Shown in pieces: positions 3,775 to 58,677 of a stretch of 64,000 nucleotides of DNA. This stretch comes from Undaria pinnatifida (taxonomy: Eukaryota > Sar > Phaeophyceae > Laminariales > Alariaceae), in assembly GCA_012845835.1 (NCBI GenBank), contig JABAKD010000024.1, positions 3,655,374-3,719,373 of the forward strand, given 5' to 3'. The translations under genes and the position numbers were made by a program. The notes under the pieces are model-generated. The model saw only the letters and a list, made by a program, of their open reading frames with translations. It searched no databases and was not told the origin of the DNA. Position 1 is the first letter of the stretch. Every line of letters begins with the position of its first letter.

Positions 3775-6700
3775 GCAACAACAACAACAACAAGGCTACG
3801 GTGGGGGGGTCACTTTTTTTTTTCTGGCAGTCACCTCGGGGAAACTCGGTTGAATGACGAGTGACGAGTGATCCCTGCGAGTGACCCCCGCGTTCCATTT
3901 TTTGCGATCTTTATTAAGCTTGTCTGCAGATTTGTTTGTGTTATATAAATCCGCCATGGAACGGAAAGCTACGCTGCGCCCGAACCACTTTTTTTTCTTC
4001 AATTTTCCTCTGGTGGATGGACAACGACACCAACAACGACCAAGGCTACGGTAGGGGGGCTACCCCCATTTTCACTGGTGTGTTTGAGCCACTCGCACGA
4101 GTAGCTCTGTACCCTACAGATGAAGATGGTTTAGGAACTTGGTTTGCCGCAGCTTAGATCACCTTTGCATTGCGGATTGATTTCGTCAATGTAAAACATA
4201 AATAAAACGTAAGATTGCATAGGAACAAAGGGGTTACTCGCGCGAGTGACCCCTAGCCACTGAAACAAAAGCCCCAAAAGGGGACCCCCCTACCGTAGCC
4301 TGAGTCCAACGACACCAACAACAACGACAACAACAGACACCAACACCACCCACAACAACGACAACAACAACAACAACAGCTACGAACAGCAACAACAACA
4401 GCAACAACATCAGCAACAACAACAAACAATAGTAGTTGAAACATTTATTTATTTTTTTCACAAACTTCGAAGTATAGTCGAGTCTAGACTAATAATATAG
4501 TATTGAAAATACACACCAGCTGTGAGATCGAGGATTTTGTCGAAACTCATCTTTGCAAACTGTGTGTGTGATGCTCCGATCGCGCGTATCACGGGTTGTG
4601 TGTCCTCACGGGTTGTGTGTCCTCGCGGGTTGTGTGTCCTCACGGGTTGGGCATCCTCACGGGGTGTGTATCCTCATTAAGGTATGTATATAATCTATAC
4701 AGAGAGATACCGCAGACAAACTGCAAACATTATCCGACACCAATGTAAAGCTATTTGTACCACAAAGCCTGCCCGTTGGCTCTCCGGAGGATGGGACTGT
4801 AGCGTTCATGGTGGCAAGAAAAGTGTTTACTCAACTGCAAACACTATCTCTGCGCTTATTCGGAATGGTTTGCCCCAAAAACGTACGCGCATTTTTTCAC
4901 CCCTTTTACGACCGAAAAACGTATGCCACATTGAACGCAACGACTTTGCTATTAATAACACAAGGTGCGTCCGTACATACACCATATATATATCGGTTCA
5001 AGATCGAGGGGCGATGGGATTTAGTGAAAGATACTCTTGTTTCATGACGACAGCAACTATTTTTTACGTCAGAGGAAGTCGACAGAACAGAGCCATGGCC
5101 TAGGTATGCATTTCTTCAAACAAGTCTGCGAAAAAAGAATGCCATTCCAACGATATTAGGTTAGATGTCATTCCAACGATATTAGGTTAGATGTCATTCC
5201 AACGATATTAGGTTAGATGTCATTCCAACCATATTAGGTTAGATGTCATTCCAACGATATTGTGTTAAGAACTGAAGGATTTGTGCTACATCTAAGGCAG
5301 AACACTTCAATTATTCGTTGTGGAAGTTAGAGGGAGATGATATCCTGTACGAGTTCCAAGAACTCCCCCCCCCCACAAAACAAAAGTGTGATTAACGAGT
5401 ACGCGCGTCTAAGAGGTGGAGAGAAGGAGCAGTAGTAAACTTATTCAAGAAAGGAGAGAAGGCTGACCCGGGGAACTAACGAGAGACAACGGTATTGAGC
5501 ACCGTAGGCAAAACATTATGTAATATTTTGAACGATAGGATGGGAACAACGTTGGAGAAGGACGAAACAATAAGCGAAGGGCAAGCAGGAGTTAGGCCAA
5601 ACGTTACTAGTTGCTGCGTGTGTAGACCATGTGTACACATTAGCTGGAATAATTCAAGACAGGAAAACTCCGGGCTAACGACCTACTGTTTCTTCCTTGA
5701 TATGTACAGACGGCCTACGATACAGTATTATTGAGGAATGGGTTGTGGAAAAAATACGTGTGAAATTGGCATTATTAGAGGGAAGATGTGAAGAATTATT
5801 ATGAAAAATATTACGGAATTTGCTAAAAGTGCTGTGATGCCGGACGGGGTAATATCCACATCTATATGTTGATACTTCGATATTTCACAAGGAGTGCACG
5901 AGGATGTACACTATCACCCAAAATATTCAAGATATATAGACTGAATATTCCGCGCGCAGACTGACTAACATCAGATCAGGTATCACCCTTTTGACCCTGG
6001 TACAAGCTACACTCACTGTAGTTCCAGGGGGAGTCGCCGATCCATATCATTAATGAGGACACACACCCAGCAATAATACGCGCGATCGGAGCATCACACA
6101 CAGCTTGCAAAGAGTTTCGACAAAATCTTCGATCTCACAACCGGGAGTGCATTTTTATATTTATTTATAGAATATAGTCTAATATTATTAATGGCGTGAT
6201 AGTAGCAGTCGAAGCAGCGAAGCAAGCAGTCACGACGGGACGACGGGGGAAGATACGGTGTCGGGGTTGATGTTTGCGGATGATTTCGTGGGGATATCAC
6301 AAACACCCGAAGGATGGCAGAAACAGATAGAGAAAGCACCAGAGTACACTAGGAAATGGAGAGTGACAGCGAACGTTGAAAATATGCGAAGTAGTTGTAT
6401 GTAACGTAGATAACAAGGTGAATCCGGTAAGTTTCAGGTGGAAGTGCGGAGAAGATAAACTACCGACCATAGACCAGTATACGTACCTTAGCGTAGAGAT
6501 CTCAAAGGACTGCTAAGAGGAATAGATTAAATCGCAAGTAGGCGAGATGCATGCGATCGGAGCAGACTCACTCTCTCGCACATTGACCCTAGAATGAAAA
6601 AACATGTATCTTGATTAATCTGGTTGTTGTACCGAAGTTAGAGTATGTATGTGCTATCAGGCTTAGTTTGAGTAAGCCATTGGTTACCCTTTTGCAAGTG

Positions 6701-9700
6701 GTCAAACGCCACCAATACCTTAACAAATGGCGTCGTCGACAGGCCATGGGTTTTTTGGGCCGTGGGTTCGAGTCCCGAATCCACCATAATAAACTTGTAA
6801 CAAGCCCCTACATATCTTTGATCTCACAGCCGGAGTGTATTTGAATACTAAATGTGACCTAAACCTCCTACAAAATCTCCCCTCCCCCCCTACCCCTTCT
6901 CACTCTTCCTTGCTCAAACGCCCCACCTAATATCGAAATCCGCCAGATTAATAAACACTTCACGCACTGGATATCACCTCATTATCTTTCGAGAGCCATC
7001 CATGCCGCTGCTTCCCCCCTCCTCCCCCCCCCCCCCCCGCCCCGAACGCCCCCTTCTTCCCCACCACCCGCACCATCGCCTAGACCGAGCACCACCCGTA
7101 TAACAAACCCCTACATCTATACCACCTAAAGCCCTACCCTTCCCGCCCCCCCCCCCCCCCCCCCGCCCCCCCCCCACTCCATCCCACCCCATCGCACCCC
7201 CACCCCCTCGAACACTCCGCCCTCTCTCTACTCACTGATTGTACGACTTACCCCAGGAGATACATGATAAACTGATGCATTCTTTCCAAAACCGTCATAT
7301 TTATCCCCTTAAAATAATGTATAGTTTCCACGTACAGATTGAGCTGCCCCACCCACCCCACCCCCGCCCCACCCCCCCGCCCCCCCTATGATAAACTGGT
7401 GCATTTGTTTTTTTTTTTCCCAAAATCGTCATATTTATCCCCTTGAAGGATTTATAGCTTCCACACACAAATTACCCGCCCGTCCGCCCCCGCCCCCAGT
7501 CCCCCCCCCTCCCCCTTTCCTCCCCCCCTCTAACCCCGCTCGCTTTTGATCAAAACCAGGCCCCCACTGTTCGTAATCGTGGCGAACAAAGGAATCGATT
7601 ACCCACTGGCCTTCGTACACCTACAATTCCATTAGTCTATTACTACGCAATGCGGGTATTTGCCCACCGACAGAATCCAACCCTCTTACGTACCCCTCAC
7701 ATAGCCAGCGGGGAAAATGTATATATATCAAACCGGGAAGATGTAGACTTCGTTCCCCTTGCCTCCTCGGGAAGGCATGCTGCAAGGCATGCCCTAGCAG
7801 GCTTGTAGCGAGCGGGGGGTGTCTCTCTGGCGGGTGTAAGGCCGGACTCACCCTCAAGGAGTGATACCTTTTTGCTGCTGCGTGTGGCATCGAGGCTTAG
7901 GCGTGGCGGTAGAGTTAGGTCGTACGTGGTGCGTTAGGCATGGTCACCTACGATTCGCGCGTCTTTTCAGGCAGCAGCGGTGGAGCAGCAATGCTTAATC
8001 GGGATGCTCGTGCGCGGAGGCAGGCGCCACCACGAGCCACACTACGGCGCAGTCTCGGTTTGCGTCGAGGGAACTGCGCCGGTAGGAGGCTGGATTCGAC
8101 GGTGAAGGAGGAGGGCGACTGGCCGTCGACGGGCGGGGAAGAGACGGATTGAACTCTCCCTGAACAATAATTTTTGTTTTACAGGTCAGCACCGCAAGCT
8201 GCGTGGAGCATTTTGTATTTTTGGGACGAGGGAGAAGGGGAACCGATTGGAATTAAGTGTCAACAAGAGCAAGTGCGAAAGAGCGGGCCGAGTGAGCGAA
8301 GGCGATGAGGCGGCCATGGAGAACCACAGCAGGAGGATGGCGCACGGAAACCCACGACCCGCGCGTACACCATCGTCACGAGAGCAGCAATCGTCTTTTT
8401 TCAGCTATTTTTACGAGGCATTAGTACAACATGTTACTTACGTCACTGATTTTTGTAGAGTTTGTAGAAGAGTTGTATACCCTTCACGGGGAACGTTGTA
8501 TACCCTTCATTGGGAACGACCCCCCGCAATTTTCAATTTTCAGGCACGGGCGTCGTAGCTGCGCTGCAACCTGCCAGATAACCCGGGACGACGGGGCCAT
8601 TAGTGATACTTGTATATTGGTTCTTGGTTCGATTGCTCTTTTTTCACTGCATGCCGGCGGGTCGTCACTCTGGCAGCACTCCAGACAGCAGGCGCGTTCG
8701 GCTGTGCTCACGATTACCGCGCGGTTCGTACGGTGCAGGCAGCCCAAACGCTGTAGTTTGTAGCCGCGAGTTGGTTAGTTGTGGGGACGGGGGAACTCTA
8801 TGCTGTAGGTGAGTGGATACCCGCGGCCATGTGAGTTCAGTTTGCACATACATTGGATATTTTCACTCTTGTGCGCCTTCTTCTTCGTATCGTTCGTTTG
8901 TAGGCGGGAAAACTATGCACTCCTCCATAGTCAGGGAGTGCCCGAGCTTAAACTAGTCTGTATCACACCTTGGACCTGTAGCTCTGACTTTGCTCCCCTA
9001 CGCGCTCCGCGTGCAGGTCGTCGCCTACACAGCTGGGCCAGGTGTACCCAATGCTATCGCTCATATGACGATAAATTACCGCATTGATCTGATTGGTCAA
9101 ACTTCTTACGGACGTACAAAACCCATCGACAATGTACAGCAACAAGTTATGAAGATTTAGCACGTTATTTACTACACTTGAACACTGGGTTGCATGCTGC
9201 ATCTAACATCAAACCTTCTAGAATAGTAAACATTACCAGGCAGATGATGTAAAGGGATGTCTTCTTGCTACAATCGTCAGATATGTCCCCTTTAAGGATT
9301 TATGGTTTCCGCGGACATATTGAAAAGTCCTGCCCCCCGTCCCCCCCTCCCCTCCCCCGTCCCCGATCCGTCTTGTTAAAAAAAAACCCACCCCTTCCCC
9401 CCCCCCCCCACCCTCCCCCGATCCCTCCCCCCCCCCCCTTTTTTCTTTGTCCGCCTAGTTTGTCCAAACGCCCCACTCACAATCGAAATCGACCAGAGCA
9501 ATAAATAACCTTTATGGAGTTGGTATCAAGTCATTATCGCTCTGACCATCCATTCATTCATTCCCCCCACCCCCCTCAACCCCCCCCTCCAACGCCCCCT
9601 CTTTTCCCACCACCCGCACGATCGCCTAGACCTAGCACCACGCGTATAACAAGCCCCTACATATCTTTGATCTCACAGCCGGAGTGTATTTAATATTATT

Positions 9701-12700
9701 GGTGACCTAAACCTCCTAAAAAAGCTTTTTCGCTCTCCCTTGCTCAAACTCCCCACCTAATATCGAAATCCGCCAGATTAATAAACACTCCACGCACTGG
9801 ATATGGATATCACCTCATTATCTTTCTAGAGCCATCCATGCCGCTGTTTGCCGCCCCCCCCCCCGCCCCGAACGCTCCCTGCTTCCCCACCACCCGCACC
9901 ATCGCCTAGACTTACACGTATAACAAACCCCTACATCTATGCCACCTAAAGCCCCCCCTCCCTCCCCCCCCCCGCCCCATCCCCCACTTCCCCATCCCGC
10001 CCACCCCCACCCCCTACATCGTCGAACACTCCGCCCTCTACTCACTGATTGTACGACTTACTCCAGGATATATACATGATAAACTGATACATCCTTTCCA
10101 AAACCGTCACATTTATCCCCTCAAAATAATGTATAGTTTCCACGCACAGATTGAGCTGCTCCACCCGCCCCCCCCTGCCCCAACCCCCCTCTCGTCTATG
10201 ACAAACTGGTGCTTTTTTTTCCGAAACGGTCAGATTTATCCCCTTAAAGGATTTATAGCTTCCACGCACAAATTACCCGCCCGTCCGCCCCCGCCCCCAG
10301 TCCCCCCCCCTCCCGCCCCCCTTTTGATCAAAATCAGGCCCCCACGTCCTTAAAAACTCCGCCCTCCCCTCACCGGACATTCGACTTACAGGATTCACTT
10401 GATAAACTGATGCATTTCCTTCCACAGCTGTCAGATTTTGTCCCCCTCAGAAACAGGTTTTATAGTTTCCGCGCACAGACTGCCTAAAATCATCCTGTTG
10501 ACCCTGATAGCTACACTGTAGTTGTAAGGGGAGTCGCCGACCTATATCCTTAATGAGGACACACAACTCGTAATAATACGCGCGATCGGAGTATCACACA
10601 CAGCTTGCAAAGATGAGTTTCGACGAAATATTCGATATCACAGCTGGAGTGTATTTCAATTTTTATAATACTTCATTATTTGTTGATATTAAAAAAATAT
10701 AAATACACTCCAGCTGTGAGATCGAAGATTTTGTCGAAACTCATCTTTGTGCAAACTGTGTATGATACTCCGATCGCGCGTATCATTCGATGTTGTGTCC
10801 TCATTAACATCCTCTTCGGCGACTAATTATAAGTTGGAACTATTGTGGGTGGGATTCCCGATGGCTGAAAAAACTTTCTGGGTTTAAGCAAACCATAACT
10901 CCCAGCCTTAAAGCTCCACAACACACTTCAAATCTGTACAACAAGTATTATTGCAGTTCGAAACCGGAATGCGGCCAGAGCCTGGATTGTTACCTGGGAA
11001 AAGAGCCAATATTTCATTCAGTAAAAGGAGTAAATAGTTCACTATTTTATAAGAGTGGACAGTTTGTGAAGAATCACTTTGTTCACTAGCTTCAGTGTAA
11101 CGGCAAGAGTGCTAGGTAGGTGTAAAAAGTGTTCACTAACTTCAGTGTAACGGCGTCCGAATCTTTTTTTTTGACCCCAGTAAACACCAGGTTGCCCTTC
11201 TCGGCATTGCTCGGTTGTTCGCCCAGGGGTAGGCATTGTCGCCTGAAAGGTTTGTGCAACCACTGAGTATATCTGACGTCTGCTATAAGGCTTAGTTTGG
11301 GGAAGCTATTGGTTAACCAGTTGCAAGTGGTCAAACCGACTAATACCCCACTAATTCCTTAACAAATGGCGTCGTCGACAGACCATGGGTTTTTGGGTCG
11401 TGGGTTTGATGCCCACATCCACCATAATAAACTTTTTCAGATTTTCCCATGGCGAACTTGAAAAATACTCTCCCCGGTATACCCAGGAAATGAAACGGCT
11501 TGGATATATTGACAGGTCCGCCCGTATATCCGGCCGACCTGCTATCCCGCCGTTTCAGGGGGGGAGAGTGTTATAACGCTTAGTTCGGGTAAGCTATTGG
11601 TTAACCTTTTGCAAGTGGTCAAACGGACTAATACCCCACTAAAGTCCTTAACACGTCCCCAAGCTTAACCGCTGAACGGTTTTCCAGATCCAGATTTTTT
11701 CAGACTGCTATTATTGTGTACCTCTAAAATTTGGCATTATTAGTCTGGACCTATCACCCCATCCTATTTTGATTTTTTTTGGACAATTTTCCTCACGGAC
11801 GATGGCAACAGGAGGCGTGAAGTAGACTCAATGCGCACAACACGCAGGTTGCCAAACTATAAAGTTTCGAGAAATCCTCAATCTCAGCAACAACAGCAGT
11901 GTATATTATAAGAAATGAAAATACACTCCAGCTGTGAGATCGAAGATTTCGTCGAAACTCATCTTCGCAAGCTGTGTGTGATACTCCGATCGCGCACATT
12001 ACGAGTTGTTGTGTATAACTTTCAATCCCTAGTGTTTAATACATAAAACACGTCTTGATGTCTGTCTGCCTACCTGCCTGTCATCACGATCTCTGTAATC
12101 ATGGTCTCGCTCCCAGAGGGTTTTGGCGCCGTTTTTCCGTATGGGTAGGAAGGGTGAATGGCAAAACCAGCAGAACACAGGGTCCCGTGCCACGCTGAGT
12201 CGTGGCCGTGGCGTGCTGAGCATTTCCGACAATCCCGAGGCAGTCCTGACAGCCATCAAGCCAGCCTTGCTGCTGAAGAAAAATCTGATTGCCATTTTGG
12301 CTGCTGATTGGACTATCAAATCCACGTCAGATGCAGCCTGCTCTCTTCCAGAAGGGTTGGTGCTGAACACAAGTGTTTAACATTCCGGATTCCGACCATA
12401 GAACCACATCGAGGTTCCGCCGCAGGAGGGGATAAAAGGGTCCAATCCTCGGTTCCGGAATCTCTTCATACTCCATAGCTCCGACCAACTGGGGACGGAA
12501 ACGACTTTCCCCCGAGTCGACACCGTCCCACAAAGTATGGAAACCCCTCCACCCATCGGCTTATCGCCGATATGCTGTTGCTCGTGGAGCCAGTGGCGCC
12601 TGGGGAAGATATAGTCCCATCCCCAGAACAGAAATCCGTCCTAAAAATTACAATTCCAACAACCTCAAAGTCAAAACAGTGATCCCGCACGGTGTGGAAA

Positions 12701-15700
12701 GAAGATCCCCACCGGTTGATTGCTGAATGGTTCGGGACAATGTAATCAGCGCCCGGGTAAAAGTACCCGTTGGGCCAACGTCAAGGCCCCACAGCACCCG
12801 GGAAGTATAAGGCTCCATCCCCGGTTCAGAAACCCTTTCAAACCCTCACAACTCCAACAGAAAACAATGATCCCCCTAGTCGATACCGACTAGCACGGTG
12901 TGGAAGCCTCACCCACATAGGCTGATCGCTGATTCGCTGGGGCTCATGTAGCCAGTGCCCGTGGAGAATTAACCCTCGGGCCAACGTCGAGGTCTCACCG
13001 CACGCTAAGAGGATAAGGCCCCAAATCCCCGGAGCCGAACTCCGTGCATAAATCTACAAATCCGACAACCCGGGGGTGAAAGTGGTGATCCGCCGAGTCT
13101 ATACCTCCCCCTGCACGGTGTAGAAACCCCTACCCCCATGCGCTGATTGTTGTTTGACTGGGGTTCGTGGAGCAAGCGTGTGGCGAGAGTTTCTCCTCGT
13201 GGCCACGTCGAGGTGCCGCCGTGCCAGGGGAGGATAGTATCTTATTGCCAGATCAAATATCCTTCCACACTGTATTACTCCAACAATCCGGGTGACGAAA
13301 CCGGCGAAGTCTCGGGTCGGTAACGTCGATAACGCCCCGCATGGCGTGGACACCACACGTCCCTATCGGCTGATCGCTGATTATCGGGGGCTCATTGGGC
13401 CATCGTGCTGCGAGAGTCGCTCCGTGCATGTTCCTTATCACCCGACATACGTTAGATGCACGGGAGGTCGGACCAAAGCAGATGACGACGACGAACCAAA
13501 GCGTATATGCTGTTGTCTCGGTTGCTCGCGATGCTCTAGATTGCTGTCCAGCCAGGTAAAACCCCCCACCACATCCAGGGCAAATGCAAGAAAATGCACC
13601 TCATGTTTGTACAGCTCTTATTCTGTAGTATTGCATGCTTTTATTCGCCATCTGACAATGTGCAGAGTGGGTGTCAATAATGCGTAATACGCTAAAATAC
13701 CCGAAAGCCCAGACTACAAAGAGTAAATGCGCGAAACAGTTTGTCCAACCGCCAACAACTACGAATGCTAGATGTGCGCCCATGTCCCCCTGGCCCTACT
13801 ATCCTCTCGAGCTACCACCGCCAAGCCCCCCCTCATGTGGATGCGTGCTATGATAGAGGCAGCGCCTTTAACTAAAATATTTAGTGAATGACGCGGCCCC
13901 TTGACCCAAATTTGTCGGAATGTCACTCTTGTTTTCCAATATTGACGGGGGTTTTTTATCTAAGCCATGGGTGTGTCTACAGGTCGGTCTTAACGATACG
14001 TACAGCACTCCAGTCTTTGATGAAATTTCGGCGAACGTTTTATCGAAATATGCGAAGGTTGAATCTTCCCGAGAACGAGCCTCAGTTGGCCCGCAAAACA
14101 ATCGCCTACCCCGCAGAGAACCGTTACTACAGCAGCAATGCTGGCGGAAGACACCCGCGTGGTTGTCCCACAGGAGTCGGCCTTACTCGTAGACACGTGT
14201 CGGTGCCTTGGAGAGCGCAATCCGTCACCGACTCGTCGCGCCACAACGCCCAACGTGACAAACGTCTCAGCTATAATAGCCGTCAGCGAGCTCGTTCGAT
14301 CGTCCGCCTCGGTGCGATCACTTTGTCAACTCGACGATGAGAGCTCAGCAGCTCACTTGTGCATTCTGCGATCAGCCATGACTTGCCAATGACATTGGGA
14401 ACGGTCCTGCTGAGTCTCGTGCGCTCGCGAGTGGTGGCGCAGCTCGAGCCGTGCCTCTGCCCGATCCTCTACAGTTACACCCTTGCACTTAAATTTTAGT
14501 TTTTTCCATAAAAAAACTGAAAAGCCTAAAGGCCAGTTTTTTCCGGGGGTGACATGTTTAATTTTTTCCCGAAAAATTGAAAAACCGACAATGTCGGTAA
14601 AAACCGAAATATTAGTTTCGTCAGTAACGACCTTAAGTCGAATGATACTGTCAGGTTACTCGAAAATTTGTTTTTCGGTGAGTTTTGTAGCTCTTCAAAG
14701 GAGATAGGCTACGGTAAGGGGATGACCTTTTGGGGCATTTTTTTGCGGTCGCTCGGGGTCACTCGCGGCAGTAACCCTGTTCCTTTCGCGAGCTCACGCT
14801 TTCGCGCTGTTGTCGTTTTTTAATATGAATCAGCAATGGCATGGCAAGCTACGCTTTGGGAAAATGAAATCGCCTAGAGCCTACTTCTCCGTGACGTAAA
14901 GAACCATTCGTGCGAGTATTGAGTTGTTCTGCGGTAGCTCCGCCAACTATTCTTTGACCAAAGTGCCGGTTTTGAAAGCAGCTCCCGGCCGTATCTCTTG
15001 AAGTATGGTGTCCATTGACAACCCGACGTCGTCGTTCGATAGCCATATGCAGAACAAGAAAATGTAGGGAACCTTTTTGTAAATGGCACCCTTCGTCGTG
15101 TCGAGCAGGCGTGAAACGTTCGTTAAAGAAAACCGCTGGTTCGGGGGGGGGCTATCGTAGAATCAGTCTAATTATAGAATGATGGCTCAGACACGGTCCA
15201 GAAGATGGGGACGCGTGCTACGATAGAGGTATCATTTGTCGTGTCAAATTGGTTCCTAATGCCGGCGCCCCTTAACCCGAAATCGTCGGAAACAGAACGT
15301 TTTTTTTTGCATGATTTTTGTGGGTACCTCGGCCATGGGGTTTTTTCATGCGGTACCAGTTATATGTTTTCCCCAAATCAGTTTCTGGGAGAGGGCTCGA
15401 TCTCTTAAACCGAGGAACTTCGGAAAAAAATTGCGGTGCACCTCTATCGTAGCACGCGTCTGGGGTTATATCATAACACCCCCCCCAGTAATTGCATGCC
15501 GTCGCCTCAAGTGAGGTGCCGGTGCTTCAGATAAAAAATGGAGAAGCTCTCTCTGCCGTCGTAGCCTTTTTTCACCGCAGGTACTTCAGAACAAGCATCA
15601 AACGCCAACCGCTGTCTACATGAAACACTGGCTTTTGTGCTGCTGCGTGTATGTTTTGATGCGCGCGGAACGTTGTGAGGTGTTGCCGCCCGGATACTGC

Positions 15701-18700
15701 TATCATCGGTCGTGGAATGGAGAGCGTCCCCCGCCGTCTCGCTCTTCTGTGGCTCTAACCTCATCACCCCTCCCTTCGAACACGACTTCTCCCACCCCTA
15801 ACCATCGGTTCCATCCGACTCCCTTCCCCTCTATAATATGTCAAAAGGCCGACGTAAACCAACTCAGACTACGTGACTGCCCGCCATTTCCGCTATGTCA
15901 CACCCCACCGTGATCGCCTTTCAAAACGTGCAGACAGGACTGGGGTCGAAAACATCAATCGAGCGAATGAAGAGGACGCTCACGGCCGAAGGATTCGCGA
16001 AGAGCCGCTGGGATCACATTGTGTTCCGATTTGAGCCAACGTTTGCGAGCCAGCACCTCGCTTCTGTCGGAAATTGGGATTCGGCCAGGCGGGAAGTTGT
16101 TCGAAAAGTTCTTCAAGAGGCCAGGAAAAATTTCCACGTACACCCAAGGCCGTGGTGAGTACCGCCATAGGCGCCGCGTTAGATGTATGATGCTTAACAG
16201 TGCGCTAAGGTGCGCTTCGTCTTTTTTCCTGCGGCTCCTTTCATGAGCTCTCTCCCCCCCGCCTCATTCCACACGACAGAAAACACTTCGAGAAAAAGGT
16301 ACGTAGGCCTATCTCGATGAAGGCTTACAAGGCGGAGGCACAGAACGATAACGAGAGGATTCGGTAAGAGGCCCGGGTCACCCTAAGGGCTCATGGTTTC
16401 AGCGATACAGAGAGGAACCAGCGCGAGGGGCTGTACATGCCCGATGCCTTTATTTTGTTTCGGTTTCACGATGTGCCTGGTGTTTTAAAGCTATATCTAT
16501 ATCTATAGACTATCTATAGACTATTCAGGGCCGATTTTGAGCGTGGCTCGAATTCGGTATTGCAACTCGAGGTATAATACTATGACAATATTACCTACGG
16601 TAGTCTCACTCAAGAAAAAAAAAATTCAAGCACAAACGAGATTCCATGAATATTGGGTATACTAGGTATGAAGAGCTCCGTCGGTCAGACAGTTGTTTTG
16701 GGCAAGAAGTACAACAACGACTCTATCATAGCACGCGTTTACGTACAGGTTAGGCTCCAGTATCGACTGAATGTAACGATCACGTGTGTCACAGTTGCAT
16801 GTCCATACTTGGTATGTATGCGTGGCCTGGTTATCACAAGCAGTACAAACGGATACGACCATGTATCGATAAACATACGACAAAAAATTCGAGCCGTAAG
16901 CTCGACCAGTTAAGCGAGTGGGTATGTCACCTGGTTCTTCATAAACAGCACTATGATCAAACTGTGATAGCGTTTGGTCCTGTGCTCTCAGCCATATTCA
17001 GTGTTGTTTATTGGACCAAAGCCACTTACGGTGGAGGAGGTCTCTTTTAGGACCTCCTTGTGCAGTGAATCGATCGGGGTCACTCGCGCCAGTGACCCTC
17101 CTCTTCCTTGGGGTCTTAGACTCTCGTGCTGTTTGGGTTTTTCCAAATGAAAAGCCAGAACCGGATGGTTAGCTAGGCCGCGCGAGACAGATTGTCTAAG
17201 TTTTAACGCGGTTTTTGTCCGTGGGGCACAGAGTCTCGCGCGAGTATGATTGCTCAGACCCGGCAGTGTATCGAAAAAGGGAGTATGTTATAGCACAATA
17301 CTACCGTTGACTTGATATTTTCTGCATGTTTTCGTCCAGGAAAGCTCGATCCTGGAATACCTAGCTCTCCGACTTCCAATGAGCTTGCGCCGAGCTGCGC
17401 TGTCAGAGCTTGCATCGCAATCGGTCTTCTTGTGTGGTGTTCTTACTGTTTCAAGTCTGTGCCAGACCCAGGCTACGGTAGGGGGGTCCCCTTTTGGGCC
17501 TTTTGTTTCAGTGGCTAGGGGTCACTCGCGCGAGTAACCCCTTTGTTCCTATGCAATCTTACGTTTTCTTTATGTTTTACATTGACGAAATCAATCCGCA
17601 ATGCAAAGGTGATCTAAGCTGCGGCAAACCAAGTTCCTAAACCATCTTCATCCGAGTGGCTCAAACACACCAGTGAAAATGGGGGTACCCCCCCTACCGT
17701 AGCCTTGGTCGCCATACCTGCTACCTGGTCGGAATTTTGGTCGAGAGGACTTTTCGTTTTTCCGTGCTTGTAAATCAACCGGGAGACCCTCAGAATTTGG
17801 ATTGATGTGGTCGAGTTCTTGTCGTATTTCGGTGCTTTTGTAAATCATTTTGTGGCTTGTTGTGTGTTACTTTCTCATTTTCCGTGCTATTAAATAATTT
17901 CTTGGCGTGATCTAGGAGTTTTTATTTTTCCCTGCTTCGTCTTCTGTGGCGAATTTCGTCCGTGTCAACTGGAAAAACCGCCGAGTTTTGCGCCTTCCGT
18001 AAACGGTGCGATTCTAGCCTAGTGCACATCAAGCGTATCAAGGTACGCCCGGCGAAGCCACACAACCTCACACCACAATTACCCAATCGTTTATCAGATA
18101 CCTGGCGTTCGGTGACGAAAACAACAAGAATAGTAGCTGCTAAGGCATACCATATATAATCCTTCCAAGATAGGTATACCATCCCCATCACTAGTGGTGT
18201 GTTTCTCAGGGGGGGGGGGCGAGGCTTGAGCGGCGGGCATGGAATGGGTCGTTGACATGGCATAGCAGCTAGCTGCCGCTTCGTTGGCTGTGGAGCCAAT
18301 TTGCATCTACCTTTCTTTCAGTAATTATTCATTGAGGCAGGGATTAATCTAGTATTAATAACTATTTCACGGCTCCTTGGCATCGGAAATTGCCGTTTGC
18401 AGTACATGCGTGTTCATTCTTAGATCTGTCGATGTTAGCCTCGTTGGCGGCCCTGACTAGGCCGCCGTCCAAGACCCCTTGTACACGAGTACAACATTGA
18501 AACGCGTTGGATCAGGGTATACCATATGCGTATAATATATGGCTTCATCCCCATGGAAACATTTGGTTGGAAACGTGACGTTTGATCGTACACGCCCCGT
18601 TCCGTGTAGTCCTTTCACTCACAGCATCCCATCCTGCCAAGTGCAGCACAGTAGAGACATTGCAGCGGACCTCGACAACTAGCTTTGCATCTATAAATAA

Positions 18701-21700
18701 ATGCGTGAATGCATGCGGGTCTGTTTGCGTATTCGTTTATGACAATGTGCTGTTTACCCTCCGACAAAGTTCGATGCACGTTGCAATATAATACACTACC
18801 AGGTAGACGATACTAGTGCTTGCGTTGTTCAGCCTGAGACCATACAGGCCCACCCCACTCTTCAAGTAAGCTGAGAGACAAACGAAGTATAGAGATCTAC
18901 AAGCAGAAGATTCGTTTGATCATGAGTGCCTTCCCGATCACAAGGAAGAGAATAGCAGAACGGGACGGGGGGGTATAATCGGGCGGAGACAGGGCAAGAT
19001 GGTGGTGTCGTGAACGTCCGTGGTATGTACGGGTATGGCAATCCTTTTCTGATCCCACTCTCCATACAGCTGATAAAGTCGCTATGCGTCGTTATGTATA
19101 TACAAGAGTGTCAAGTTATACAATTAAGTGCCTGGTATACAATATGAAAATTAAAATACACTCCAGCTGTGAGATCGAATATTTTGTCGAAACTCATCTT
19201 TGCAAACTGTGTGTGATACTCCGATCGCGCGTATTACGGGTTGTGTGTCCTCATTGAGGATATAGGTCGGCGACACCCCTTGCAACTACAGTGTAGCTAT
19301 CAGGGTCAACAGGGTGATGTTAGGTAATCTGTGCGCGGAAACTATAAAACCCGTTTCTGAGGGGGACAAAATCTGACAGCTGTGGAAGGAAATGCATCAG
19401 TTTATCAAGTGAATCCTGTTCGAATAACCGGCGAGAGGAGGGCGGCGTTTTGAAGGACGTGGGGGCCTGATTTTGATCAAAAGGGAGGCGGGAGGGAGGG
19501 ACAGGTGGAGCAGCTCAATTTGTGCGTGAAAACTGTAAACCCCTTCTTGTGGGTGTGTGGCGGGGGGGGGGGGGCTTTAGGTCGCATATATGTAGGGGTT
19601 TGCTATACGCGTGGTGCTAGGTCTAGGCGATGGTGCGGGTGATGGGGAAGGAGGGGGCGTTGGGGGCGGGAGGGGGGGGAATTGCCGCAGCGGCATGGAC
19701 GGCTCTAAACCGATAGTGAGGCAATATCCACGGCGTGGAAGTGTTTGTTTCTCTGGCAGATTTCGATATTGGGTGGAGCGTTGAGCAAGAGAGAGCGAGG
19801 GGAATAAAAAAAGGGGGGGGGGGGAGGAGGGCGGAGATGAATTGGAGCTACGGCATGGGTGGCTAGAAGGATAATGAGATGATATCAGTTGGCTGGTAGT
19901 GTTTACTACTCTGGTAAATTTTTATTTCAGGTGGTGCGTTTGAACAAGAAAGATCGGGGGGGGGGGGGGGGTTAATATGTGCGCGGAAACAATAAACCCT
20001 CAAAGGTTACTAATCTGGCGGTTGTAGCAAGAAGACACTCCTTTATATCGCCCGCCTGGTAATGGTATTATTCTAGAAGGTTTGATGTTACATGTATTAT
20101 GCAACCCAGTTCTTAAGTGTAGTAAACAACGTGTCCAAAGCTTCATAATTTGTTTTGTAGGCACAATCATGTAGATACCAGTGCTTTCTGACATCGCTAA
20201 TCATATGTGCTGGTACTGCATGTATGCCATTATCTACCATATTCTTGTCTGAATTACTCTACCTGTATCTACTGTAAATATTGAACTCTTCTTGCAGCAC
20301 TCATAAACGACTGGTTACCAGTGGTGTCTTACAGAACAGGAGCGACAACACATATATATGTTATTGGCCATGTGTGGTGTACTGCCCGACTTATTTTCCC
20401 AACACTGAGAAGGCGCAAATTAACACATTGTTGTATGTCCGTTGCCGTCACTATCGTCTGGTCTATCTATAGCAGCGTGCAACTCCACATTTTTACGTTA
20501 CTTTTATTTATAGTGTTTTTTTTGCCTTTACGCCGTGTCATTTGACATGGAGATCCGTGAAAAAGCTTCAAATCTCTCCTAAATAAATACGAAGTATACC
20601 CATTACGTTTTCACTCGTGTATCGGACTCTATCGACAATAATATGGACATGTTCCTCATGCCGCGTATGTATTATATTGCTATTTATGAGGGCAAGATGG
20701 GTTAGGAAGTTTGTCAACTTTTTACGCGTAGCCAAACAGATGCCCGCATTTCCTATGTAATGCGTACATGTAACGTCGTCGGCAGGACAAACAACGAGGG
20801 AATCTTATGCCGTATTAACATTACTATGACCTGTTTTGTCCAGGTACGACGACAATCTGGAATGCGCCTTTGCCCGCGACCGGCTCAATTTTTCCGTGCA
20901 TGTTCGCATGGGCGATAGACGCGCGTTTCAGGCGGGAACGTTGGAATACTTCAATCTTTTGGAAGCTTTTATGGGCACCGTCTCCTCGGAGGTGGTAAAC
21001 AAAGGACTGGAGCCGCCGCTGTTCCACGTATTCTCTGAAACTTTAATGCCGTGTCCTTCGTCGGAAACGGGACTGTTCGACGAGTTCCCTTGGTGGCCAG
21101 TCGTGCGTGATCAGGTTTGAACGATGACACTCTTATGCGTGTTTTCCCTCTGACATGGTTCCGCAGCTCAACCCTGATCACTCCTGCGTCGTACGTATCA
21201 CATAATACAGGATTTATAGTTTCCGCTCACAGATTGAGTTGCCCCCCCCCCCCTCCTCCCCCCCGCCGCCCCCTCTTGTTCAAACCCAGCCCCCCATGCC
21301 CCTCGAACGCCCGCCCTCTCCTCACCGGTTATAAGACTTGCAGGATATAATTGATAAACTGATCAATTTTCCTTCCACAGCTGTTAGATTTTGTCCCCCT
21401 AAAAAAAACGTGTTTAATAGTTCCCACGCACAGACTGATTAGCATCACTATGATGACCATGGTAGAAGCTACACTGTAGTTCCAAGGGGAGTCGCAGACC
21501 TATATCCTTAATGAGGACACACACCCAGTAATACGCGCGATCGGAGCATCACACACAGCTTGCAAAGACGAGTTTCGACAAAATCTTCGATCTCACAGCT
21601 GGAGTGCATTTTATTTTTATGACAATATCTAGAAGAGCCAGTAAGAAAAAGACACCCCGAATAGAAAATGACCAAATAAATGAGCAAAATAGTATTTCTT

Positions 21701-31206: not shown

Positions 31207-31528
31207 GTGAGGTGCAGAGCCAATCGAACGATTAACCGCAGCGAAAAGGGGGGTAGGACTGACTCTACGATAGCCCCCCCCCAAAACCAGAGATTTCTTC
31301 AACGAACGTCGCATGGTGCTTGATACAAGGGATGATGCCCTGAAGAAAAAACTTCGTGTATTTCCTTGGTTGCGAGGGGCTATCGAACGATGACATCGAC
31401 GTGGCGAAGGGGCACCGTACTGCAGAAGACGCGGCCGGGAACTGGTTTCAAAACCGGCGATTTCGTTAAGTAAACGTTGGGGAGGCTACCATAGAACAAC
31501 TCGTACCCTCTCCATTGTAGCCTTGGTC
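31207..31528. mobile_element. F3 MITE right part with a nested F14 MITE
   Basis: The F3 sequence GTGAGGTGCAGAG...AAAAGGGGGGTAG is followed by a complete F14 element and then resumes with CCCTCTCCATTGTAGCCTTGGTC, the F3 right end. The F3 left part is missing. It lies just beyond the 3' end of the SDR gene. Confidence 0.75.
31257..31502. mobile_element. F14 MITE
   Basis: The ends are GACTGACTCTACGATAGCCC and, inverted, GAGTTGTTCTATGGTAGCC. Flanks are GTAG and GTAC. The interior matches 14921-15168 in reverse. Confidence 0.85.
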
Positions 31529-44714: not shown

Positions 44715-46300
44715 TCATAATCCGGGTGTGAGACCCTATCCTCCCTAGGTGAGGTGGGGCCTCGGCTTTACCCCGAGTAGCAACCCCGCGCTGGCTCCAC
44801 GAACCTTACCCAATAATCAAACAAAGCCGATTGGGGGTGGGATTTCCACACCGTACGGGGCGTATCGACCAAGAAGATCACTGTTTTTGTCCCTGGGTTG
44901 CTGAGTGGTAGATGAACGGAAGAAGGTTTCATACAAAGATTGGACCTTATCCTCCCCTGGTGCGGCGGGACCTCGACTTTGCCCCGAGAGAAAACTACCA
45001 TAACGCGCTGGATCCACCAACTCCGGCCAATCAGTAATCAGTGATGTGACTGGGGGTCGGTATTGACCGAGAGGGTCGATGCCTTCGTTCTCGGGGTCCT
45101 GGTCTTACAAGAAATTAAAAAAGTATTTCTGATCCTGTATGGGTTCTTATCCTTTCCGGGTTAGACGGGACCACGATGTTGGCTCGGGGGGTAACTCTTG
45201 CCAAGCGCTGGATCCATGAGACCCAGCCAATCAGCGATCAGTCGATGGGGATGGGGTTTCCGCGCCGTTCGGGGTAATACCTTCCCGGGGGATCACTTGC
45301 TTGGTCCCCTGGTTGTTGGAGTTGTATACGTACATGAAATACTTCTTGATCTGGAGGTGGGGCTCTACCCAACCCAGGCGCCGCAGGATTTCGACCTTGG
45401 CCCGACGGGCAGATCTTCCCGTGCGCTTGGCCTATGAGCCGAAGCCAACAGACAATCAGCGGAAGGGGTTGGGGTTTCCACACCGTGCGCGTTGGGATCC
45501 AGGAGTCATCCCACGCTAGGGGTGCCACAAACGTTTCTGCGAGGTCCTAACGTATGGAGCTTATCATGTCACGCGAAACATGACTTCGAAGACATTCGTT
45601 CGCGCCATCCGACCGACATTCCTATGCACTAATCCTAAAAACAAAAATTGTACTCGTAAAGTATGATGCTAACCGATGGTTCCAAACGTTATGAACTCTA
45701 ACCAATCAGAAGATCAAAAACGTTTGACCCAAAAATGCAGCCCCTACTGTGCGATGACTCCGAGGGATCTCTATTTTTGTCCGCGGGCTGTCGTATACTT
45801 ATACATGTATGGAGAGATTTCAGATCCGGCGAGGGGATCTTGTCCTTCCCGGGTGCGGCGGGACCACGACGTTGACCAGAGGGTCAACTCTCCTCGCGCT
45901 CTACATCTATGAACCCCGATCAACCAGCGATCAGTGGATGGGGGTGGGATTTTCACACCGTGCCGGGCAATATCGACCTGGGGGGTCACGTTTTTGGTCC
46001 TCGGTTGTGTTGAGTTGTAGATGTTTTCAAGGCCTCCATATCTGGAGATGGCGCTCTATCCTCCCCGAGCGCGGCTGAGTCCCTGGGTCATTGCCTATCA
46101 GCGATCAGCCGATGGGGTCAGCGTTTCTACACCCTACGGGACGGTGTGGACCCAAAAGATTGCAGTTGTCGTCCCAGATGGGTCAAAGTTGTAGAGACAT
46201 GGAGGAATTTCTAAATCGGGGATATCACCCTCCCCTCCTCGCCAGCGGCCAAACCCCGATGGTTTCATGGCTCGAATATTGCTATTATTCAGCACCAACC
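44715..46300 (-). repeat. Satellite array B, reverse orientation of array A
   Basis: About six or seven ~175-215-bp units share (reversed) the same landmarks as 12380-13430: CCAATCAGCGATCAG, GGGTTTCCACACCGT, GACCTCGACTTTGCCCCGAG. An F2 MITE interrupts one unit at 45503-45760. Confidence 0.85.
45503..45760. mobile_element. F2 MITE inserted in the satellite
   Basis: The ends are GAGTCATCCCACGCTAGGGG and the inverse of GAGTCATCGCACAGTAGGGG. Flanks CCAG and CGAG are a worn 4-bp duplication. Interior CATGACTTCGAAGACATTCG is shared with the other two F2 copies. Confidence 0.88.
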
Positions 46301-49635: not shown

Positions 49636-49639
49636 TTGT

Positions 49640-50680: not shown

Positions 50681-50681
50681 T

Positions 50682-51860: not shown

Positions 51861-52379
51861 AAAAACTACGAGTATTGGTTTTCTTTATTGGCCTTCGTTA
51901 ATACATGCTTTTTAAACTTTCAGAGATGACTCCGTCTCCGGCCGGCATGCCGCCCTTCCGAGGTTTGCCCGCTTCGTCGGCGCCGACATAGTTCTCTCCC
52001 AAAATATCATCTTCAACACAAATTTCACATCAACAACCTCTTGGTAGAAGTCATTACTATTCACCTTTCTTTACTCTCCTCTTCCTCACAGCAGTATCTT
52101 TAAAAATAATCATGAGGGTGGGGCCGCCGACGGCGGCGCCGCCCGATCCTTGTAATTGCTACAATCAACTGAAAGGCGTGAGTAATCAAGCTATTTTTAG
52201 GCTTGCTTATTTTAAGCATAATCCAAGCAATATTGTCTGGCTTATTTGCTTAAACGCAAACAACCGTACTTAGCTAAAACAACCAACATTATGAGTAGGT
52301 TTTTATTATCCGTATTTGCATATTTTGTAGTGACGTAATCAAACCTTTTTTGGCTTGCTTATTAGGGCTCGAATTAAAA
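51861..52379. other. Intergenic sequence, AT-rich, no feature recognised
   Basis: Repeated GCTTGCTTATTT-like and AAGCAA words occur, but no defined element. Confidence 0.3.
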
Positions 52380-54064
52380 AGGGCCCGAATTAACGAGGAA
52401 CTTGCCAAATCGAATTTCGATTTTTTTATTTAATTCATGAAAAATTCACGAAAAATTCAAATTTGATTCTTATCAAGGAACGGCGCAGTGCGTTCTAGGA
52501 AATAAAAAAATTCAAAAAACGCAAAAGGGTCAACGAACACCCGTGGGCAACGACCGAGGCGAGCGATGGCTCGCGTCCTCCCCGGAGCGCTGCGGCTAGC
52601 CGCAGAATCTTTTGGCCGGCAGCGGCTTGGAGGCTATGGCTCTAGGTGTCTCTTGGATGGGCTGGCGCCACCCCGCCGCCCGACACGGGCAGCAGCGACG
52701 GGGATATACCGGTCGAACTTCTGAGCGAAGTCATCATATGGTAGTTGGTCGTGTAACTTTCGAGGTGCAGGGCGACGAAAATCTGGGTTTGCGGCGGTCT
52801 CGGTTGTTTTCGAAGCGTCGCAGGCGGTCCAGGCTGTGCTAAGGACCTTCGGAGGCTGCGCTGCGGCTGCTCTGGTGGTCCTACCTCTCGCAATGGTGGC
52901 TTCTCGCCTCTCAATCAGCCGACGACATGGCACCAATTCGCGTGGCCGGCTTCGGTTACACAGAACAAGCCATGTCTAGGTGGACAAACTCCCCAAATTC
53001 AATTTCGATTTTCGACTAAATTCGACCGAGAAAGTCTTTTTTTGCTTCTTTGTTGGATTTGATTTTTCGTAATGATTCTGAGAATGCCTGCTTGGTGATT
53101 CATTTCTTGACCAATCAGATGCAAATTAAATTCAATTCAATAAAAAAAAATCGAAATTCGATTTGGCAAGTTCCTCGTTAATCTGGCCTAAATTCAATTC
53201 AATAAAAAAAAATCGAAATTCGATTTGGCAAGTTCCTCGTTAATCTAGCCCAGATTAAACCAGATTAACGAGGAACTTGCCAAATCAAATTTCGATTTTT
53301 TTTTATTGAATTGAATTTAATTTGCATCTGATTGGTCAAGAAATGAATCACCAAGCAGGCATTCTCAGAATCATTACGAAAAATCAAATCCAACAAAGAA
53401 GTAAAAAAAGACTTTCTCGGTCGAATTTAGTCGAAAATCGAAATTGAATTTGGGGAGTTTGTCCACCTAGACATGGCTTGTTCTGTGTAACCGAAGCCGG
53501 CCACGCGAATTGGTGCCATGTCGTCGGCTGATTGAGAGGCGAGAAGCCACCATTGCGAGAGGCAGGACCACCGAAGCAGCCGCAGCGCGGCCTCCGAAGG
53601 TCCTTAGCACGGCCTAGACCGCCTGCGACGCTTCGAAAACAACCGAGACCGCCGCAAACCCATATTTTCGTCGCCCTGCACCTCGAAAGTTACACGACCA
53701 ACTACCACATGATGACTTCGCTCAGAAGTTCGACCGGTATATCCCCGTCGCTGCTGCCCGTGTCGGGCGGCGTGGTGGCGCCAGCCCATCCAAGAGACAC
53801 CTAGAGCCATAGCCTCCAAGCCGCTGCCGGCCAAAAGATTCTGCGGCTAGCCGCGGCGCTCTGGGGAGGACGCGAGCCATCGCTCGCCTCGGTCGTTGCC
53901 CACGGGTGTTCGTTGACCCTTTTGCGTTTTTTTTTTTTTTTTTCCTAGAACGCACTGCGCCGTTCCTTGATAAGAATCAAAGTTGAATTTTTCGTGTATT
54001 TTTCATGAAATAAAATAAAAAAAACCAAATTCGATTTGGCAAGTTCCTCGTTAATTCGGGCCCT
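52380..54064. mobile_element. Head-to-head inverted dimer of a TIR element with a GC-rich core
   Basis: The left arm (about 52380-53188) and right arm (53262-54064) are near-perfect inverses of about 805 bp. Each arm is itself bounded by inverted ends of about 45 bp (GAATTAACGAGGAACTTGCC). An extra 62-bp copy of the end lies between the arms. The ends are AT-rich, the core (for example 52540-52950) is GC-rich, and in the left arm a 100-codon minus-strand frame is open (RKLHDQLPYDDFAQKFDRYI) that is broken by TAG in the right arm. No transposase is visible. Confidence 0.9.
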
Positions 54065-54209
54065 TAGTCTAATTAATGTTATGCATAATTCAAGCAACTT
54101 TGTCTTGCTTTTTTTGTGTAAAAGCAACTACGTAACCGTAATCCACTAAAAAAGCAACCAAATTAGTTGATTTTAATTATGTGTATAGAAGTTATATTCG
54201 TTGTTTATA

Positions 54210-55265: not shown

Positions 55266-55546
55266 GAGCCATACCACCGTAGTGGTGCAGCAGATTCTGA
55301 GAAGTTTCTGAGATACGGACATATGAGGGGAGCTAGCTTGATAACCCGACAAATGACTTCGAAGGTATTCGTTCGTACAACGCGAATTAGTACCTATACG
55401 CTTTCGCCCTAACAAAAAACAATAATTCTCTCGGAAAATAACTAGACTAATGACTACGCGGCAGTTCTCCACTTGAGGAGTTCAATCAGACAGAGAGTAT
55501 ACCTATTTTTGGGACAAAAATGGCAACCTCTACCGTGGGATGACTC
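55266..55546. mobile_element. F2 MITE
   Basis: The ends are GAGCCATACCACCGTAGTGG and the inverse of GAGTCATCCCACGGTAGAGG. Interior AATGACTTCGAAGGTATTCG and TTGAGGAGTTCAATC match the copy at 57951. Confidence 0.85.
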
Positions 55547-55567
55547 GGTTATATCGTACTGGTATAG

Positions 55568-55825: not shown

Positions 55826-55965
55826 TAAAATATTGATTGAAGTACAGCACGAGCGTGCCTACCAGGGAGGAGGCGCGGTATGGCGGCGGATGGCACGCAC
55901 TAGGTGCGACCAAAGCTACGGCAGGGAGGTATGCCCGTTTTTCACTACGGGGTCTAAGCCGTAAT

Positions 55966-56630
55966 ACCATAATACCACAATATTATAATACTATAATACT
56001 ATAATACTAAAATACTAAAATACCATAAAAATACCATAATAATACCATAATACTATAATACTATCATACTATCATACTAAAATACTAAAATACCATAATA
56101 ATACCATAATATCATAATACTATAATACTATAATACTATAATACTAAAATACTAAAATACTATAAAAATACCATAAAAATACCATAATACTATAATGCTA
56201 TAATACTAAAATACTAAAATACTAAAATACCATAAAAATACCATAATACCATAATACCATAATACTATCATACTATAATACTAAAATACTAGAATACCAT
56301 AATAATACCATAATACCATAATACTATAATACTATAATACTACAATACTAAAATACTAGAATACCATAAAAATACCATAATACCATAATACTATAATGCT
56401 ATAATACTGTAATACTAAAATACTAAAATATCGTAAAAATACCATAATAATACTAAAATACTATAATACTATAATACTGCGCGCGATCGGAGTATCACAC
56501 ACAGCTTGCAAAGATGAGTTTCGACGAAATCTTCGATCTCACAGCTGGAGTGTAGTTTCATTTTTTATAATACTAAAATACTATCATACCATAATACCAT
56601 AGTACTATCATGCTATAATACTATAACACT
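55966..56630. repeat. ATAATACTATAATACC-type minisatellite inside F3
   Basis: Irregular repeats of AATACTAT, AATACCAT and AATACTAA, with one F4 end inserted at 56479-56571. Confidence 0.95.
56479..56571 (-). repeat. F4 terminal fragment inside the minisatellite
   Basis: GCGCGATCGGAGTATCACAC to CACAGCTGGAGTGTAG is the F4 end. The AT repeat continues directly on both sides. Confidence 0.88.
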
Positions 56631-56840
56631 CGCACGAGTGACTGTACCTCGCGGACGAAAAGACGCGACGATATGCTTAGCGCATCGTGGATAATTTTTG
56701 CGTTGCGGATTCACGTCGCAAAATAAAAATAGCACCAAAGATTTAGACCGCAAACGAACGAGGGGTCACTCACGCGAGTGACTTCGGGCCACTGAAGAAA
56801 TTCCCCAAACATTACTCCCCAACCGTAGCCTGGGTCGTGC

Positions 56841-57554
56841 ACAGGAGGGAGAGGAAGGCGCAGACGCGCTGTGTGTGGTGGATGATACAGTACAATACAC
56901 ATTTTTCTTATGTTCTTCATTTTTGTTTGTAATATTTATTGTCAGAAACGGTTTTCAATTTCACCACAAAAATGTGTTACGTTTTCCTATTTACAATATT
57001 GAATAACAAAAAATGCACGTAGGTCAGCGCTGTGGGTTCGACCGGTAAGATGGTCGGCACTCTATTTTTTAAGCTACGTAATGCATGACGCATGCGTGAT
57101 GCGTGATGCATTCACAATTTGTTTCCAATACATCAGCAGTACGTTCGCCCAGATAGATGAGTGTTTGGTTCTCAACTTTGCAAGAACTTTACTTGTGCAG
57201 AATCAACCAGCAACTTATCGCTCGCAAAACAAGGATGAACACAATAATTTAAAGTATAGTCTATGTCCCACTGTAATGCACTCAACGATATGTGATGCCC
57301 GGTTGTTTCTCTGTGTATTTTTCGTCCTCGGTACAGGGCGTAATTCCGCACGGTAAGTGATAAAAATACTCGTAGCTAATTTCCCTCGGATTTCGCACAG
57401 TTACGCGTCACCGATTGATCCACATCCAACGTCTCACACAGCCAGTGCGGCAGGAAGAAATTAGGGAACTTGGTGGCACTCACTAAACTGTGCAGTCTGC
57501 TCTAAACGTACAGCAGCAATCCGTAGTAGACAAAGTATTAACGCGGATAGAGAA
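56841..57554. other. Intergenic sequence, no feature recognised
   Basis: AT-rich; the open frame at 57081-57356 shows no domain. Confidence 0.35.
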
Positions 57555-57950
57555 CCGGGCGTCGAGATATAACGGAGTCTTCAGAGGGTCTGGGTGTGCT
57601 TCCAGCGGTACAAGATGGAAATATGTGACCGCCCGCGTGTGCGCTTGTGGCTGAGGGTGTTGATGCTGGAAGCCCCTGATGGAGACGTTACTCCACGGGT
57701 GCGTGACGTGGAGCCCGAACAATCCTGACAACGACAGGCTACAGCTAGTTCACCACTCCATGCACCTCCGATGCCTCGGCTGGCGGCAACGAAAACGCGA
57801 CGACCACAGCGACGACACCGTCTCGAACACAAACGCGCTGGCGAAGACAGACTTCGAGGGCCGTGAGGTGACGGTGCGGAAACGAGGGATTTATTCGCGT
57901 AATTCGTTGCACATCTGGGAAAGGAGCGCCTGCCGCAGAGAATAGTGTTT

Positions 57951-58236
57951 GAGCCATCGCACGCCATAGGGGTGGAGCAGATTTCAATCTGAAAATTTTC
58001 TGAGCTGCTAACATGAGTATTTGGCTGACCATCTCGCCAGAAACATGACTTCGAATGAGGCATTCGTTCGTGCCACCCGACCAACGCGTCGTCCACGGTC
58101 TAGTCTATCTAGTCCTAAACCAAACGTGCTCCTAAAAATGATTAAACTAACCGGCAGTTCCTGGCTTGAGGAGCTCAACCGGAGAGGTACAATATTGGTT
58201 AATCCAACAACTGAAACTCCTGCCGTGGGATGACTC
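57951..58236. mobile_element. F2 MITE with GTTT target duplication
   Basis: The ends are GAGCCATCGCACGCCATAGG and the inverse of GAGTCATCCCACGGCAGGAG. GTTT is at 57947-57950 and 58237-58240. The LINE reading frame across the site proves the boundaries. Confidence 0.95.
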
Positions 58237-58426
58237 GTTTGGGGAGCTGATTGAGGTCAAGGGCTACTCCGGGGGGGCAAGAAAACTATTGGACGACCAG
58301 TGTGCGTAGAGGAACATGACATAATCTGGCATCAAGTTACAAGGTGCGGCGAAATGCTGAACAGATGGCCGGCGAATGGGTTCGGCGGGTCGTGGAGGGG
58401 GCGCGGAGTCATTCATGCGGAAAAGG

Positions 58427-58677
58427 GACGCATGCTACGATAGAGGTAGCACTTTTTGGCTGTTTTTTTTTCTGGATGACGGGGCTCCTTAACCCTAAAT
58501 CGTCGGAAACGGGCAATTTTTTGTTTTGCGCGATTCTCGTTTACCTAGCAGGTCATGGGATTTTTCATCCGGTCAGTAGTTTTCATTTGCTCCAAATCGG
58601 TTTTTGGGAGAGGTCTTAAGCTCCCAAGTTGAGGAGTCTCAGAAAATAAGTAGTGCACCTCAGTCGTCGCACGCGTC
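58427..58677. mobile_element. F1 MITE with AAGG target duplication
   Basis: The ends are GACGCATGCTACGATAGAGG and the inverse of GACGCGTGCGACGACTGAGG. AAGG is at 58423-58426 and 58678-58681. The LINE frame continues across the site. Confidence 0.95.

Follow-up and report, generated by a model that had tools for sequence, protein, structure and literature searches.

Four families of short inverted-repeat elements, here designated F1, F2, F3 and F14, recur within a 64-kb stretch of the genome of the brown alga Undaria pinnatifida (64,000 nucleotides, positions 3,655,374 to 3,719,373 of contig JABAKD010000024.1; hereafter the window) and raise the question whether miniature inverted-repeat transposable elements (MITEs) with dissimilar interiors can depend on the same enzyme. 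The initial annotation, made from the sequence alone, had described a terminal pattern and a 4-bp target duplication common to all four families and had attributed them to one transposase absent from the window. Analysis of the window and of the genome containing it (511,146,479 bases in 68 contigs) suggests, with a probability that we put at roughly 0.8, that F1, F2, F3 and F14 are non-autonomous MITEs with a common end that are moved in trans by one transposase or by close relatives.

Alignment of the family consensus ends, in which F3 and F14 are each represented by two variants, gives the common end GASNNNNNCYACGRTAG in a fixed register: columns 1, 2, 9, 11-13 and 15-17 are identical, position 10 is C or T, and position 14 is A or G. 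The core occupies positions 9-17 and is preceded by a step at positions 4-8. Because the register is constant across the consensus ends, this step is a fixed 5 bp and not, as initially described, a variable 5-7 bp. The sequence of the step varies between families but is well kept within F1 and within F3 (for F2 only 4 ends entered this check, and F14 mixes two end types), and this conservation gives it the appearance of a family-specific portion of the end and not of a random spacer. F3 copies typically carry one CAAGG end and one CCAGG end, and F14 copies combine one GAGTYGTTC-type end with one GACTGATTC-type end. The YACGRTAG core has 19 matches in the window, compared to a mean of 5.97 in shuffled sequence, and none of 100 shuffles reached 19. 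Family-specific 20-mers, with up to 3 mismatches, match the window 11 (F1), 4 (F2), 11 (F3) and 3 (F14) times, against shuffled means of 0 to 0.01.

The common GA(C/G) start and core are borne out not only in the window but also genome-wide, where the generic end pattern GASNNNNNCYACGRTAGNSS has 20,552 exact matches compared to 232 for the reversed control; ends throughout the genome thus do share the core. When up to 2 mismatches were allowed, the 20-mers of F1, F3, F2 and one of the F14 end types produced 21,246, 7,752, 5,653 and 5,473 matches, respectively (controls 0, 3, 0 and 1). From the end counts and element lengths, we estimate a total of about 40,000 ends, that is, roughly 20,000 elements that would account for close to 5 Mb (1 %) of the genome. 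An F1 end has also turned into a tandem array, in which the exact 20-mer of this end occurs ten times on the same strand, 62-63 bp apart (contig C1, 13778465-13779045). The exact family 20-mers (F14 in its genomic form) have no match in the viral_contigs collection, and the F1 20-mer has none in genome_contigs, two collections that may omit records close to the genome of the window. No match was obtained for an F1 element among phages or for an F3 element among plasmids, and Rfam gave no match at gathering scores.

The target duplication was assessed on 97 pairs of ends from the window and 90 genome loci, de-duplicated by flanks, in which both ends belong to the same family (at most 5 mismatches) and are separated by 201-344 bp, with two named longer copies included. 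The last k bases of the left flank are identical to the first k bases of the right flank, for k from 1 to 7, in 28, 4, 3, 52, 0, 0 and 1 cases. Thus, a perfect 4-bp duplication is present in 52 of the 97 pairs, whereas about 0.4 would be expected by chance according to our estimate, and no 5-bp duplication was found. Such exact cases occur in each of the four families (F1 6/22, F2 11/20, F3 28/35, F14 7/20), in agreement with the initial annotation. In a looser, earlier sample, 35 of 83 pairs showed a perfect 4-bp duplication, and only 0-1 remained when one of the flanks was displaced by 1 or 2 bp. The duplications have no clear target pattern, with 51 % AT over the 35 and mixed base counts over the 52. 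Median divergence from the consensus is 5.2 % for F3 (31 copies), 10.9 % for F14 (5 copies) and 16.3 % for F1 (17 copies), so that F3 is the youngest of these three families; the two F2 copies available are too few for an age.

In the window, 16 elements of the four families were recognised, 14 of them by pairing inverted ends and two by reading the sequence (57951-58236 and 32142-32401); the former was missed by the end scan because of a 2-bp insertion in its left core. The count leaves out single or broken ends, such as those at 3788, 13840, 14701, 16739, 28299 and 46978, the first of which, where the initial annotation began, is a degenerate single F3-like end adjoining a CAA microsatellite. 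The 14 scanned elements make up about 6.8 % of the window, with the nested element counted once; the GC content of the window is 48.6 %. A perfect 4-bp duplication flanks 7 of the 16 elements, three of the four flank positions match in another 7, and two of four in the remaining 2 (55266-55546 and 32142-32401). All seven duplications that had been named at the outset are present. Strand is given for F3, where plus denotes that the GACCAAGG-type end comes first.

4038-4306, plus strand, F3, 269 bp, duplication CAAC
14921-15168, F14, 248 bp, flanks TATT/TAAT, 3 of 4
15210-15460, F1, 251 bp, duplication TGGG
17465-17710, minus strand, F3, 246 bp, duplication GCCA
31257-31502, F14, 246 bp, flanks GTAG/GTAC, 3 of 4
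32142-32401, old F1, 260 bp, flanks GACA/CAAA, 2 of 4; family assigned by eye
34371-34617, F1-like, 247 bp, flanks AGAC/AGGC, 3 of 4
36341-36864, minus strand, F3, 524 bp including an insert, flanks TGAG/TAAG, 3 of 4; interrupted by F1
36428-36680, F1, 253 bp, nested in the F3 at 36341-36864, flanks CCCT/CCTT, 3 of 4
40225-40562, minus strand, F3, 338 bp with an internal 21-bp tandem repeat, duplication TGTT
41313-41561, F14, 249 bp, flanks TTGC/TTGT, 3 of 4
45503-45760, F2, 258 bp, flanks CCAG/CGAG, 3 of 4
55266-55546, old F2, 281 bp, flanks TTTT/GGTT, 2 of 4
55908-56836, plus strand, F3, 929 bp owing to an internal AT-rich tandem array, duplication GTGC
57951-58236, F2, 286 bp, duplication GTTT; by eye, 2-bp insertion breaking the left core
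58427-58677, F1, 251 bp, duplication AAGG

Nested insertions occur between the families. At locus L031, an F3 copy flanked by TTAT is inserted inside an F1 copy flanked by GGGA, and removal of the insert with one TTAT retained gives an alignment score to the F1 consensus of 310.5, compared to 308.5 when both are kept, a small difference; the difference is similarly small for the F1 copy nested in F3 in the window (253.5 versus 251.0). At locus L065, an F2 copy flanked by CAAA lies inside an F1 copy whose own flanks are unmatched. Judged by eye, an F3 copy at locus L024 (approximately 1529-1870) contains a different small inverted-repeat element with GTGTTTGCGAAAGTAC-like ends.

The interiors of the four families had been described as unrelated and, once the terminal bases are removed, most family pairs indeed score as shuffled sequence. 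However, global alignment of the interiors yielded z 4.5 for F1b-F2 and z 3.0 for F1-F2 (0/200 shuffles each), and larger copy samples gave z 2.7 for F1-F2 (3/300) and z 3.8 for F2-F3 (0/300), whereas under stricter local scoring the values dropped to 0.7 for F1-F2 and at most 1.4 for F2-F3; the local F1-F2 score with larger samples was z 2.0. Given that 66 comparisons were made over three rounds (12, 30 and 24) and that several other pairs reached z 2-2.6 in one test each (F1-F3 2.6, F3-F14 2.0, F1-F14 2.4 and F1-F3 2.4), values near z 2-3 are within the noise. The signal hints at a kinship of F1 with F2 and of F2 with F3 but is unsteady, and the interiors appear for the most part unrelated. 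The F2 and F3 consensus sequences further contain an imperfect palindrome located 49-66 bp inward from either end. Across F3 copies, 7.7 of its 9 pairs are formed, compared to 6.0-6.4 in shuffles, and its place is fixed in most copies; across F2 copies, the values are 7.3-7.8 versus 6.3-6.4 and the position is scattered. No such palindrome is found in F1, and F14 shows a slight excess at one end only (7.0 versus 6.3). These observations bear on the possibility that some or all of the four families go back to a single old MITE lineage whose members diverged but retained their ends, as opposed to independent deletion products that came under one transposase. The higher interior scores, the palindromes of F2 and F3 and the similar consensus lengths of the families (248, 249, 249 and 269 bp) are consistent with such an origin; the instability of the scores, the F14 interior, which does not exceed z 1.5 in the larger-sample test, and the lack of the palindrome in F1 argue against it, and we consider a single lineage rather unlikely.

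No transposase was found between the shared ends, either in the window reading frames sampled or in filtered pattern searches of the genome. Of the 131 window frames with at least 95 amino acids (aa), 20 were scanned against Pfam; they gave one match, which falls below its cut-off. The genome filters required a family end and forbade the family interior; by our estimate they let through only 10-24 % of unrelated interiors, and a rare coding parent could therefore have been missed. Among the places listed, F3 and F1 ends leading into other DNA revealed no recurrent larger element. The F3-end filter passed 322 ends, 100 of which were listed; inspected by eye, the majority of these 100 are 3' ends of F3 or variants with indels. 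A form in which GGATGYTAATACGC follows the F3 end recurs in 6 of these 100; we assign it to F3 as a variant, since the copy at 46978 in the window reads on into F3 sequence (by eye). Further filters gave 6 places, 1 place and 21 F1 ends, none of them recurrent by eye. The coding parent would thus be rare, or have arms longer than the filters allow, or carry somewhat different ends.

Several candidates for a longer element were examined and rejected. In the window, the ends at 13840 and 16739 would delimit 2.9 kb but have the flanks TGTG and TACG, and the variant that they share can be a CpG-to-TpG change. On contig C1, 314143/316381 comprises two F14 copies (the far end of the first by eye), 12843750/12867864 has the flanks AGTT versus CGAT, and the end at 7236766 is part of a regular F3 copy that has its partner end at a distance of 268 bp and TTCA on both sides, and therefore is not paired with 7287066. 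The 5.9-kb stretch C19:3552978/3558822 consists of two facing F2 copies with the flanks AGAA and TTTT. An F3 end at L024 that appeared to depart from the family sequence 28 bp in belongs, by eye, to an F3 copy with another insertion inside, and L058 holds tandem F3-like ends. At L057, an F3 variant (CGCT/CACT) lies upstream of a 2,010-aa frame that is not a transposase; this open frame (517-6546) begins shortly after the F3 element and contains IPT/TIG-like repeats by eye.

Searches by protein family (PF13843, PF01555 and PF02992) yielded nothing usable for the transposase; KDZ, MULE, hAT, Harbinger and integrase types were not searched for. The piggyBac-type family PF13843 has five genome matches, around which an end scan at up to 1 mismatch returned one end pair, in two overlapping loci, where the F1-like ends have mirror-image flanks and no duplication. 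These loci (L042/L043, C27:15751221-15752969) contain two oppositely oriented piggyBac-type transposase fragments; the F1-like ends lie between them in the mirror-image flanks. Transposase_21 (PF02992) has no match in the genome, and the 14 control genomes were silent as well.

With consensus lengths of 248-269 bp, inverted ends of about 20 bp, a 4-bp duplication (52/97), thousands of copies and no credible coding seen, the elements are ordinary MITEs, not assigned to a superfamily and with unusually clear shared ends. They differ from MITEs as a class in that the four families have in common an internal core of the end and not all of the outermost bases. Among the known superfamilies, piggyBac, Kolobok and Sola-3 target TTAA, whereas the 52 duplications are mixed in base content; Tc1/mariner transposons duplicate TA and Harbinger elements 3 bp, whereas exact matches here pile up at 4 bp; and EnSpm/CACTA ends begin with CAC, unlike the GA of the present ends. 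The transposase of Sola-1 is of the Sola-type DDD kind. Sola-2 shares the 4-bp duplication, but its duplications are described as AT-rich, AWWT and the like (PMC3627910), unlike the 51 % AT without a fixed pattern recorded here. The 217-bp TcMar-N1_Ec32 of Ectocarpus is likewise a short non-autonomous element with far more copies than its coding partner but is a Tc1/mariner MITE with a known parent (PMC12477816).

By duplication length, Sola-1, which had been mentioned in the initial annotation, is the best-fitting named superfamily. The Sola-1 element SrosS of Salpingoeca has 32-bp ends and a 4-bp duplication (PMC6875170), and the Ectocarpus repertoire lists one Sola-1 family, Sola1-1_Ec32, of 21.5 kb and 1,989 copies, and gives another 51 DNA-transposon families as unknown (PMC12477816). 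The 4-bp duplication without AT preference and the occurrence in a brown alga are thus compatible with a Sola-1 enzyme, but the fit is one of duplication length only, and we did not file the elements there; literature searches for Sola-1 brought up no terminal sequence of these transposons. The methyltransferase family PF01555, chosen because the Ectocarpus Sola-1 element carries such a gene, has no match in the genome, in contrast to 11 of the 14 control genomes, a result that does not exclude Sola-1. We therefore regard Sola-1 as a tentative candidate for the source of the transposase, with the odds somewhat against it.

In the mechanism that we propose, a cut-and-paste transposase supplied in trans would recognise GA(C/G)-5 bp-CYACGRTAG-N-SS at both termini, with the core as its probable binding site; the element would be excised and joined to target strands cut 4 bp apart, and repair would leave a 4-bp duplication without marked sequence preference. 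Since the families differ at positions 4-8 but have the core at 9-17 in common, all four are most likely mobilised by a single transposase or by a few closely related ones. Several observations weigh against this proposal. No coding element with these ends has been found, which is why a single transposase is offered as a probable reading of the shared core and the exact 4-bp duplications, and a set of related enzymes would leave the same picture. The duplication is perfect in only 6 of 22 F1 and 7 of 20 F14 pairs, a low share that we read as age; moreover, most loci in the sample were retrieved because an end matched, in many cases exactly, so that well-kept ends are over-represented and the proportions of duplications are not genome-wide rates. 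Finally, the Repbase rule for non-autonomous elements, namely the same duplication length and at most 1 mismatch in positions 1-11 (PMC4455052), would join no two different families (3-6 mismatches) because the shared block lies at 9-17. This outcome counts against grouping the families by convention, not against shared recognition.

The family-specific step, kept within F1 and F3 as if it were a recognition detail of its own, could also be taken to indicate several transposases, one per family, that converged on or inherited the same core. The identical register, core and duplication length in all four families speak against this possibility, which we consider improbable. It is equally doubtful, although conceivable, that the shared end marks a transposon superfamily not yet described, or a branch of Sola-1 that has gone unrecognised, with a transposase that would read a bipartite end composed of the family-specific 5-bp step and the CYACGRTAG core; the coding parent may be very scarce or very large, or may have been lost already.

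Other features of the window include an open frame on the minus strand (34504-34899) with a short-chain-dehydrogenase-like stretch (by eye), the downstream part of which is overlapped by the F1-like element at 34371-34617, and a large palindrome at 52371-54065, in which a 688-bp inverted repeat (97 %) with 63 bp between the arms is bordered by additional inverted copies. At 4516-6144, 9663-12014, 19136-21620 and 56475-59895, as well as at many other genome loci, there is another, longer repeat family, which includes a CGCGCGATCGGAGTATCACACACAG-like stretch and has no obvious relation to the four MITE families.

Literature searches with 12/13-mers of the core returned nothing related by title, and among the matches listed for MITEs of Undaria or kelps no description appeared in the titles or the starts of the abstracts; most subscription papers and the Repbase entries were outside the scope of these searches, and we do not claim that the families are unpublished. 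In the published Undaria pinnatifida assembly (511,280,173 bp, 114 scaffolds, GC content of 50.14 %), 36.1 % of the genome is reported as 'Unknown' repeat (PMC7058681), so that many repeats of the host are probably unclassified. The 17-bp end rule together with the 4-bp duplication provides a simple handle to classify the approximately 40,000 ends and to find the enzyme. If several MITE families are indeed moved by one enzyme, they would offer a clean case for the tolerance of a transposase to end variation; and should the bipartite end prove real, divergence of the step would allow several MITE families to persist side by side under a single enzyme.

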